From: Gammaproteobacteria bacterium
GTDB lineage: Bacteria; Pseudomonadota; Gammaproteobacteria; GCA-001735895
DNA: 43,313 nt
NCBI GenBank assembly: GCA_024638385.1
Contig: JAHEKJ010000018.1
Location: forward strand, 1-43,313
Direction: 5' to 3'
Part shown: positions 26,746 through 29,274 of the stretch, piece by piece
How the letters are laid out: every line of letters starts with the position of its first letter
How positions within the stretch are numbered: the first letter of the stretch is position 1
Notes under the pieces: model-generated
Database searches by the model: none
What the model was told of the DNA's origin: nothing
What the model saw: the letters and a program-made list of their open reading frames with translations, nothing else
Position numbers and translations under genes: made by a program

Positions 26746-26785
26746 ACGCTTGTCGGCGCGAATCGGCGCGCCTATAGTAGCGGCG

Positions 26786-27583
26786 ATGGAAGACCTGATC
26801 GATCTCGAACGTTACTCGCTGCACCGCCTCGACAGCGAACCGGGGCGGGCGCTCGTCGCGCGCTGTATCGACGCGCTCGAGCAAAAAGGCATGTTCACGC
26901 TGCCGGGGTTGATGCGGCGCGCCGCGATCGATGCGATCCTGCCGGAGCTGCTGCGCAAGCTCGAACACGAATCGTTCCGCCACGCGCGCGAGCACAACAT
27001 TTATTTCGACGACGAAATCGATGGCGTCGCGCCGGACCATCCGGCGCTCGCGCGCGTCACCACGGTCAACCATACCCTGTGCGGCGATCAACTCGGCGAA
27101 GCCCTGTCGCGAGTCTACGCCTGGCCGGCGCTGATCGGATTCCTCGCCCGCGTCACGGGCAAACTGCGGCTCTACCCGATGGACGACCCGCTGGCCTGCG
27201 CCAACGTGCTCGCCTACCGCGACGGCGAAGGCCTGAACTGGCATTTCGACCGCTCGGAGTTCACCACGACCCTGCTGTTGCAGGCGGCCGAAGCCGGCGG
27301 CGAGTTCCAGTACCGTCGCGATTTGCGCAGTCCTTCCGACCCCAATTTCGGCGGCGTCGCGCGCCTGCTGCGCGGCGACGACGACGCGGTCGAGACGCTC
27401 GCGCTCGACGCCGGCGACCTCAACGTGTTCCGCGGCGTCAATACCGCGCACCGCGTCAGCCCGCCGCGCGGCCCACGCGCGCGGGTCGTTGCGGTGTTCT
27501 CGTACTACGAGTCCCCGGGCCGGGTCTTCAGCGTCGAGGAAAATATCGGTTTCTACGGCCGCAGCGAACCGCTGGCAAAGTAA
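26786..27583 (+). CDS. 2OG-Fe(II) oxygenase of the BesD/HalD/ArpA-like fold with intact H-x-D
   Basis: This is a 265-residue 2-oxoglutarate oxygenase. GLNWHFDRSEFTTTLLLQ carries His153 and Asp155, and GVNTAHRVSPPRGPRARVVAVFSYYE supplies the distal His222 and the 2-oxoglutarate arginine. The framing (LLLQ, GGEFQY, then VFRG) is that of the group that includes the radical halogenases BesD and HalD. Those halogenases replace the Asp by a small residue to make room for chloride; here it is retained, so hydroxylation is expected. The substrate is probably a free amino acid or amine, by analogy only. I use ATG 26786 because the upstream TTG at 26750 precedes an unlikely leader. The stop at 27581-27583 abuts the small RNA terminator. 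Confidence 0.8.
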   Translation: MEDLIDLERYSLHRLDSEPGRALVARCIDALEQKGMFTLPGLMRRAAIDAILPELLRKLEHESFRHAREHNIYFDDEIDGVAPDHPALARVTTVNHTLCGDQLGEALSRVYAWPALIGFLARVTGKLRLYPMDDPLACANVLAYRDGEGLNWHFDRSEFTTTLLLQAAEAGGEFQYRRDLRSPSDPNFGGVARLLRGDDDAVETLALDAGDLNVFRGVNTAHRVSPPRGPRARVVAVFSYYESPGRVFSVEENIGFYGRSEPLAK

Positions 27584-27699
27584 AAAAAACCGCGGCGCGA
27601 ACGCCGCGGCGGAGGAGAGGGACTGTGAGTCCCGCGAAGAGGAGGAGCGGTCCCACCGCGGGCTTGCCGGGCGAGACCTGGCTGTGCCGGGTCCGAGGC
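27582..27699 (-). ncRNA. Candidate small regulatory RNA with two CUCCUCC motifs and intrinsic terminator
   Basis: Read on the minus strand, this gap looks like a complete sRNA gene. A TACAAT -10 box lies at 27705-27710, and the predicted start is near 27699. A transcript of about 118 nt follows, and a strong terminator closes it: CCGCGGCG, TTCG loop, CGCCGCGG (27609-27590), then eight T (27589-27582). Inside are two further hairpins, GCGGT-GGG-ACCGC and GGGACT-CAC-AGTCCC (27633-27619). Two single-stranded CUCCUCC-type stretches flank the second hairpin. Unpaired CCUCC motifs complement ribosome-binding sites, as in the CcsR/cuckoo-type RNAs of other proteobacteria. The -35 region is weak. It could also be processed from the MATE mRNA. 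Confidence 0.55.
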
Positions 27700-27723
27700 C
27701 TGTCATTGTACCCTAAAATTATT

Positions 27724-27741
27724 AAAAAGGGTCAGAGACCC
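27724..27741 (-). terminator. Intrinsic terminator of the MATE gene
   Basis: On the minus strand GGGTC-TCT-GACCC (27741-27729) is followed by TTTTTAATAATTTT. The stem is only 5 bp but the T-rich tract is long. It begins 20 bp after the MATE stop codon and just precedes the -10 box of the candidate small RNA, separating the two units. Confidence 0.55.
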
Positions 27742-27760
27742 AGGTAATCAATCCTCCAGA

Positions 27761-29134
27761 TCAGGCGACCGCGGTCCGGCCGCGCAACCGGGTAAAGCGG
27801 TGGAAACGCCAGCTCAACAGGCAGGCGGCCACCGCGAGCCCGCCGGCCAGTCCCCACCACAGGCCGACGCCGCCGAGGCGGTAGTGAAATGCAAGCACCG
27901 AGCCGCCGCCGATGCCGATGATCCAATAGCCGAAACCGGCGATCCACAGCGGCACCAGATTGTCTTTCATGCCGCGCAGCGCGCGCGCGGCGGCCGCCTG
28001 CAGGCCGTCGAAGATCATGAACAGCGCGGCGATCAGCAGGAATTGTCGGGCGAGGGCCGCGACCGCTTCGAAGCCGGGATCCTCGGGTTCGATGAAGACG
28101 AGAATGATCGCGTCGGCGAAAGCCAATGGCACGACCAGCAACGACGAGGTGACCACGACGACCAGGCTCATGCCGAGAAAGCCGGCGCGACGCGCGGCGG
28201 CGAGATTGGCGCGCCCGGTTGCGTGCGCGACGCGAATCATCGTCGCCTCGGCGAATCCGAAGGCGATTACGAACGGCACGCCGACCCAGGCCGCGGTAAT
28301 CTCGTAGGCGGCGAGCGTCTTCGCGCCGATCACGCCCGACAGTATGGCGGCGGCGACGAACAGGCCAGCCTCGAGGAAAGCGAGGCCCGCGACCGGCGTG
28401 CCGAGCACGAGAATTTCACGGCAGGTCGCGGGGAGCATTCGCCAGCGACCGAGGAACAGCCCGTAGCCGCGAAATACCGGCTTGCGGTAGACATGCGCGG
28501 CGAGCGCGAAAAACATGTACCAGGACACGAAGGTGGTCGCGAGACCGGCGCCGAACAGGCCCAGTGGCGCGAGGCCGAATCCGCCATGGACGAACCACAC
28601 GGTCAAGGCGTACTGCAGCGCTACCGCGCTCGCCGTGATCACCAGCACCGAGACGGTTTGCGCCAGCACCGCGACATAGTTGCGCAGCACCGCGAACCAC
28701 AGTACCGGCAGTACCGCGGGGCTCAGGCCCTTGAGGTATTCGCGCGCCAGCTCAACGACCAGCGGATCCTGGTTGGTCACGATCAGCGCGAGATCGAGGT
28801 TCCAGATCAGCACCATCGCCGGCAGGCCGAGCCCGGTGGCGACGTAAAATCCCTGGCGGACGGACTGCCCGACATCGTCGCGGCGCCCGGCGCCGAGCGC
28901 CTGCGCGGCGAGCACGCCGACGATCGACAACAGCGCCATCAGGATCACCAGCACCTCGAACGACAGGTCGCCGGCGATACCGACCGCGGCCAGCGAATGG
29001 TAGCCGAGCTTGCCGACCACCATCTTGGTGACGATGAACATCGCGAACTCGGCAAAATAGGCCGCCGCCAGCGGCAGGGCGATGACGAAGAACTGGCGCA
29101 GCTCGTCGCGAAGTGTCGAGTCGATTGGCGGCAT
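27761..29134 (-). CDS. MATE family efflux transporter
   Basis: This is a 457-residue inner-membrane exporter with twelve hydrophobic helices arranged in two repeats, as in NorM/DinF-type MATE proteins driven by Na+ or H+. The first helix region contains LRQFFVIALPLAAAYFAEF and TKMVVGKLG. The internal repeat contains LGTPVAGLAFLEAGLFVAAA and MIRVAHATGRAN, the counterpart of the QALGAGRRDDVGQ loop in the first half. Substrates are usually cationic drugs or metabolites. ATG 29134 is preferred over a TTG at 29221 because the added 29 residues are hydrophilic and low-complexity. It is divergent from the TAXI receptor gene. Confidence 0.87.
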   Translation of the reverse strand: MPPIDSTLRDELRQFFVIALPLAAAYFAEFAMFIVTKMVVGKLGYHSLAAVGIAGDLSFEVLVILMALLSIVGVLAAQALGAGRRDDVGQSVRQGFYVATGLGLPAMVLIWNLDLALIVTNQDPLVVELAREYLKGLSPAVLPVLWFAVLRNYVAVLAQTVSVLVITASAVALQYALTVWFVHGGFGLAPLGLFGAGLATTFVSWYMFFALAAHVYRKPVFRGYGLFLGRWRMLPATCREILVLGTPVAGLAFLEAGLFVAAAILSGVIGAKTLAAYEITAAWVGVPFVIAFGFAEATMIRVAHATGRANLAAARRAGFLGMSLVVVVTSSLLVVPLAFADAIILVFIEPEDPGFEAVAALARQFLLIAALFMIFDGLQAAAARALRGMKDNLVPLWIAGFGYWIIGIGGGSVLAFHYRLGGVGLWWGLAGGLAVAACLLSWRFHRFTRLRGRTAVA

Positions 29135-29274
29135 CGGGAGACGAGAATCGGGTGTCGCGCTACTGTATTCGATTCGCGCCCGGAGCGGTAGAGTCGGCTT
29201 GCGGATCCCGCGGCCGGTCAAAATGTCATCAAACCAACTTGTTTTGATCTATAGCGTCCTTATGTTAATGTCTG

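Follow-up and report, generated by a model that had tools for sequence, protein, structure and literature searches.

A minus-strand anti-Shine-Dalgarno element flanked by MATE transporter and 2OG oxygenase-like genes, perhaps the orphaned 3′ end of a small-protein gene

The window analyzed here is a stretch of 43,313 bases from a gammaproteobacterial genome (the home genome), and the element of interest lies in it between two convergent genes, a MATE family transporter gene on the minus strand (27761..29221; Pfam MatE, 131.6 bits) and a HalD/2OG-Fe(II) oxygenase-like gene (2OG gene) on the plus strand (26750..27583; Pfam HalD, 36 bits against a cut-off of 26). The two stop codons are 177 bases apart with the element in between, on the same strand as the upstream MATE gene, and the stop codon of the 2OG gene touches the element's T run. 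Along the minus strand the MATE gene is followed by a hairpin with T5 (27729..27741) and, ∼50 nt past its stop codon, by TACAAT (27705..27710), a possible −10 box.

Downstream of this box, all on the minus strand, come hairpin 1 (SL1; GGUCUCGCCCGGC...GGGACC, 27649..27678), anti-Shine-Dalgarno (aSD) stretch 1, CUCCUCC (27641..27647), hairpin 2 (SL2; GGGACU-CAC-AGUCCC, 27619..27633), aSD stretch 2, again CUCCUCC and found only in the window (27611..27617), and an intrinsic terminator (27582..27610) with a 9-bp stem and TTCG loop, identified by sequence and terminator scan, whose hairpin spans 27610–27589 and whose T8 run ends at 27582. The sequence and the predicted fold thus contain every part named in the preliminary description, namely TACAAT, three hairpins, two CUCCUCC-type stretches, and a TTCG terminator with eight T. 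Its statement that both CUCCUCC stretches are single-stranded also agrees with the prediction, in which the mean unpaired probability is 0.69 for aSD stretch 1 and 0.78 for aSD stretch 2.

The motif counts of the element exceed chance. CTCCTCC occurs exactly twice in the 43,313 bases of the window, both strands counted, and both copies belong to the element; dinucleotide shuffles of the 119-nt stretch contained at least two copies in 11 of 5000 cases. Within 298,830 bases of the home genome (window included), only 1 of 57 terminator-like sites had CTCCTCC at most 45 nt upstream, and this site was the element, while a stricter terminator finder gave 2 of 21 sites in 613,370 bases partly picked through earlier hits. 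On its own, the pattern CTCCTCC-N12-30-T7 shows no strong enrichment across the 31 genomes of the genus (31 raw matches vs 19 in a backward control, with overlapping T runs counted twice). The folding energy is modestly low (z −1.95; 10 of 200 shuffles equally good), and the opposite strand folds equally well (z −1.96). Because the complement carries GGAGGAG twice in addition to folding this well, and CsrA prefers GGA, the plus strand might be the active one: the 2OG mRNA would extend 3′ into a GGA-rich stretch to which a CsrA/RsmA-type protein binds; with both the T run and the terminator conserved in relatives lying on the minus strand, we regard this as highly improbable.

Consistent with the earlier remark that no family could be assigned, the Rfam search of the window yielded zero families at gathering score. 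Under a loose threshold, the element matched ncS54 (20.6 bits, cut-off 43), ncS025 (20.2 bits, cut-off 46), suhB/MmgR RF00519 (19.6 bits, cut-off 41), anti-hemB (18.2 bits, cut-off 49.5), CcsR1 (11.7 bits, cut-off 65.3), and RF02278 (11.5 bits, cut-off 50), the last a family whose name, ‘toxic small RNA’, is said to originate with Kimelman in 2012. A control terminator located after a tRNA matched several of the same families (ncS025, 19.4 bits; RF02278, 18.8; suhB, 13.2; anti-hemB, 12.6), so the weak matches of the element carry little weight, and its identification as ncS54, ncS025, suhB, or anti-hemB was rejected as largely terminator-driven. RF02278 searches are noisy: at E≤1, all 31 genus genomes had matches, none above the cut-off, as did 10 of 14 control genomes, and the eight matches in the home genome did not include the element's place.

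The preliminary description also took the element for a small RNA transcribed from TACAAT and shielded from read-through by a terminator of the MATE gene. Taken as a whole, its interpretation is supported in part. The box is there; a usable −35 and a sigma-70 call are lacking. A sigma-70 scan of 27000–28500 returned zero promoters, and a good −35 hexamer is absent at 16–18 nt from TACAAT (by eye, 1–2 of 6 positions match at a spacing of 17–18 nt, whereas a match of 4 of 6 requires a spacing of 19 nt), making this a weak promoter. We consider it unlikely that the element has a promoter of its own. The hairpin with T5 after the MATE gene likewise exists, but its stem is only 5 bp and it is a weak terminator at roughly chance expectation (2 terminator-like sites in the scan vs 1.5 expected from shuffles). 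The element could be nothing other than the terminator region of the MATE gene, its CUCC stretches and hairpins having no activity in trans, a reading suited by its position shortly after the MATE stop codon on the same strand, by the weakness of the first terminator, by the failure to find a promoter, and by the commonness of terminator-only matches elsewhere, and at odds with the rarity of twin CTCCTCC in the home genome. Further evidence on this point comes from related genomes.

In relatives, this location holds a third gene, here called MNP, which encodes a small secreted repeat protein of ∼195 residues with a signal-like start and MNP repeats, and for which no Pfam match was found at E≤1. 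The MATE gene was present in 25 of the 31 genus genomes (E≤1e-60), the 2OG gene in 24 (E≤1e-50), and a primary MNP copy in 14 (L141–L154); with weaker paralogs (L155–L170), 17 of 31 genomes match at E≤1e-6. In the eight genomes where a single contig carries all three genes, the order is MATE, MNP, 2OG, and the MNP gene shares its strand with the MATE gene. Among the remaining six MNP genomes, contigs break in some, kilobases separate the MNP and 2OG genes in G017 and G028, the MATE gene was not found in G029, and the 2OG gene is located elsewhere in G003. The home genome, which is 91% complete, had no MNP match at E≤1e-6, and its MATE protein falls inside a 16-row clade (support 100/100) made up of 11 MNP carriers and 5 rows without MNP. 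Because the home genome lacks the gene while lying within an MNP clade, the MNP gene was probably lost there. No remnant of its reading frame was seen, by eye and in three frames, between TACAAT and the first aSD stretch. A profile of the relatives' MNP promoters found no site in the window; at the right place it scored −18.2 (rank 11 of 86,576), a value that AT-rich sequence equals, and the window promoter was rejected as a homologue of the MNP promoter.

The MNP 3′UTR is short, consisting of [U]ACCUCC followed by a GGGAU...AUCCC hairpin and then a GCCGCGGC terminator, which has the form GCCGCGGC...GCCGCGGC-T(6-9) and is the counterpart of the terminator of the element. Of 13 such 3′UTRs aligned, 12 have CCTCC and every one has CTCC. 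Across 12 genomes (pairwise means), the ACCTCC and stem columns are 80–100% identical and the loop ∼30–50%, as compared to 45% mean pairwise identity at fourfold-degenerate sites of the MNP gene and 68% for its protein. The pair count gives weak support: in a set of 14 that includes the window, its alignment fitted to the model, 96% of the cells at paired positions are paired, and three pairs are changed on both sides, a number that 11 of 500 shuffles also attain; the window itself supplies one of these double-sided changes (hairpin 2, U-A to C-G). The position of aSD stretch 1 matches the conserved CCUCC, and SL2 corresponds to GGGAU...AUCCC. SL1 has no counterpart in the relatives' MNP 3′UTR, nor has the second CUCCUCC, whose place there is taken by a spacer that is not conserved. 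The preliminary description had named lack of conservation of the hairpins and CUCC motifs in relatives as grounds for refuting it. One CCUCC, hairpin 2, and the terminator are kept; because hairpin 1 and the second CUCCUCC are without counterpart, this test came out half and half. As in the MNP 3′UTR, an aSD stretch is followed by a hairpin and a GC-rich terminator at the same site and on the same strand, but the element lacks a reading frame, its linker is longer, and it carries another aSD stretch and an additional 5′ hairpin. That its aSD stretch and hairpin 2 match 3′UTR parts conserved far beyond fourfold sites argues against a mere MATE terminator region, and we hold that explanation to be doubtful.

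The relationship was also approached with R1, a covariance model of 13 relatives' MNP 3′UTRs from which the window was left out. R1 matched 27581..27643 on the minus strand at 24.7 bits (E 0.00069 within the window; runner-up 12.8 bits), and in the home genome the element was the best among the matches listed (24.7, 21.6, and 20.5 bits; E 0.067), with 150 of 2754 first-look candidates scored. Elsewhere, true copies scored 62.5–85.2 bits and non-family matches in other genomes reached 28.3 bits, so the score of the element falls inside the noise of other genomes and is not decisive alone. Because of position and strand, descent of the element from MNP 3′UTR elements is nonetheless likely. The element is also missing from this site in three other genomes (G005, G021, and G026) in which the MATE and 2OG genes are side by side and MNP is missing, so it seems tied to the MNP gene rather than kept for itself, which counts against long independent retention. 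When the region was compared by BLASTN with 57 related genomes, the sole full-length match was to itself; the next best, a 34-nt match in G003, was discarded as a terminator after a tRNA.

The explanation that we favor, by a little better than even chances, sees in the element the 3′ end of an MNP gene, left orphaned: an aSD-bearing RNA end that is perhaps now a free small RNA (sRNA). In the ancestral state, the MNP gene would have stood between the MATE and 2OG genes with a 3′UTR made up of aSD, hairpin, and terminator; in the window species the coding part would have gone and the RNA end stayed, with the second CUCCUCC and the new 5′ hairpin added. An RNA of ∼70–118 nt could be processed from read-through transcripts of the MATE gene or start at the weak TACAAT promoter, although the chance that the element is transcribed as a separate RNA falls just short of even. 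Its exposed CUCCUCC would pair with Shine-Dalgarno (SD) sequences of other mRNAs and reduce their translation. We base this on a precedent shown by others: in the Neisseria RNAs NmsRA and NmsRB, two aSD stretches base-pair with the SDs of targets (PMC5362039). Regulation in trans by the element itself is a tentative proposal. When targets were predicted among 35 crude window genes, 7 of 35 formed duplexes of ≤−10 kcal/mol, and because the prediction lacked a control set we claim no target. The weak promoter, and the fact that the homologue in relatives is the 3′UTR of a protein gene, leave a free-standing sRNA gene with its own promoter unsupported.

Applied to 274 genomes of the class, R1 had matches in 16 at E≤0.001, of which 12 have, ahead of a GGCGCGG-type terminator, a CUCCUCCAUCCUCCUUUGGUGG-like sequence; TTGACA and TATTAGA/TATAAT lie upstream in many of them. 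Of 12 class loci submitted to Rfam, 10 match RF02278 at 32.9–48.5 bits, under the cut-off of 50, and we list as RF02278-like sRNAs in Gammaproteobacteria the class loci L201–L203, L207, L208, and L210–L216 together with genus loci L217–L219, L221, and L284–L287. R2, a covariance model of 11 class and 5 genus loci of this stand-alone type, has 99% paired cells and five pairs changed on both sides, a number attained in none of 500 shuffles. It scores 53–71 bits in 8 of the 31 genus genomes (G008, G010, G011, G012, G016, G018, G024, and G027), five of which belonged to its training set. None of these eight carries a primary MNP gene, and the stand-alone sRNA and the MNP gene occur together in 0 of 31 genomes at the levels used. 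In MNP genomes, R2 matches the MNP 3′UTR at 24–35 bits in 9 of 14, as its best match in 7 of 14. A promoter box, TATATTAG-N6-CTTATAT/CTAATAT, is strongly conserved and common to MNP genes, their paralogs, and the stand-alone sRNA. A weight matrix from 13 MNP promoters placed its best site at the sRNA promoter in 8 of 8 stand-alone loci (10.0–20.8), as compared to a maximum of 3.8 over 48 unrelated loci (141,971 bases); in a mixed control set, the top eight were all MNP-paralog loci (15.3–26.6). The stand-alone sRNA and the MNP gene may share a regulator or an origin.

Two further readings were weighed. The element could itself be a free-standing, trans-acting double-hairpin sRNA of the RF02278/NmsR kind, transcribed from a TACAAT promoter of its own. 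Its order of SL1, aSD, SL2, and terminator is that given for NmsR (PMC5362039), and it is the best R2 match in the window (18.1 bits, E 0.01; next 9.4); however, it is not among the home-genome matches of R2 at E≤0.05, which are on contigs C115 and C94, its RF02278 score is far below the cut-off, its place is absent from the home-genome RF02278 matches at E≤1, its SL2 loop is without aSD, and its promoter is weak, and we judge this improbable. Alternatively, sRNA gene and mRNA tail might convert into one another within the genus, the window species having lost the frame and kept the RNA end as a secondary free sRNA; where the MNP gene is present (14 of 31 genomes), it is flanked by the promoter box on one side and the aSD double hairpin on the other. 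We regard this reading as rather unlikely. The orphaned 3′ end remains our preferred account.

Related RNA ends were seen elsewhere. All 13 length-picked further weak R2 matches (L290–L302) lie after an open frame whose end resembles that of a phasin; these tails have a conserved 3′UTR with a UUACUCCUCC-type aSD and terminator, and 11 of 13 contain CUCCUCCAA, the two divergent ones being in G011 and G027. The home genome has such a tail at G000:C115:2562-2613 on the minus strand (L275), with a second CCCUCCUCCC upstream, behind a gene matching Phasin_2 at 52 bits. The MNP promoter box is absent at 9 of 9 phasin loci (best −2.5); a PhaR-like link was looked at and set aside, as that box is missing there. 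A GUUAAAACC-CCUCCUCCUCCUCA-GGUUUUGAC hairpin with an aSD loop precedes the terminator in G030, G002, G004, G025, and G013 (L224, L229, L230, L236, and L241). In five genomes the same gene has CTCCTCC between its stop codon and its terminator (L071, L073, L080, L087, and L138, the last at G000:C93:27096-27136 on the minus strand, after a gene that we take by eye to be aminotransferase-like), and a conserved GACUCCUACUCUUA...AGAGUAUUUAGCCGGC element with a terminator was found in four (L225, L227, L228, and L239).

The unassigned sRNA candidate is now connected with a conserved 3′UTR element and, more broadly, with other aSD RNA ends in an uncultured gammaproteobacterial genus. One signature appears to take four forms, as free sRNA, secreted-protein mRNA tail, phasin mRNA tail, and orphan, a series that would be suited to asking how mRNA tails and regulatory RNAs interconvert and that suggests that RF02278-like RNAs extend beyond Betaproteobacteria.

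Among known systems, CcsR/cuckoo RNAs carry CCUCCUCCC in hairpin loops, whereas the aSD motifs of the element are in linkers; the GUUAAAACC-CCUCCUCCUCCUCA-GGUUUUGAC hairpin comes nearer to the CcsR layout. The element also lacks tandem copies, its neighbor is MATE rather than a DUF1127 gene (none was present among the neighboring genes scanned), and its CcsR1 score is low, so the likeness put forward earlier does not amount to membership, although acting like an aSD RNA is still our best guess at its function. What it shares with CcsR/cuckoo is an aSD-type motif, and the Rhodobacter RNA is processed from the transcript of a small-protein gene (PMC10253847), a parallel to the MNP 3′UTR. MmgR/suhB (RF00519) likewise has an aSD-type linker between hairpin and terminator, and MmgR controls phasins in alphaproteobacteria (PMC8401924), making the phasin tails a lead worth following. 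RF02278 is a toxic small RNA of Betaproteobacteria whose overexpressed members inhibit growth (PMC5688073 and PMC11722255). With its Burkholderia double-hairpin RNAs (PMC5688073) and Bordetella S17 (PMC11722255), the element has in common a short RNA, CU-rich aSD stretches, a hairpin, and a terminator; in RF02278, however, the aSD is in the loop of the double hairpin's first hairpin, whereas the element has a predicted CAC loop and aSD stretch 2 in a linker. Compared by description rather than sequence, NmsRA/NmsRB have three stem-loops and two aSD stretches, one of them between SL1 and SL2 (PMC5362039), and in its predicted fold the element too has two single-stranded aSD stretches so placed; the second is in the SL2 loop in NmsR but between SL2 and the terminator in the element, and NmsR genes have promoters whereas that of the element is weak. 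We liken the element to these groups rather than assign it to them: by analogy, it may act as RF02278- and NmsR-type RNAs do.
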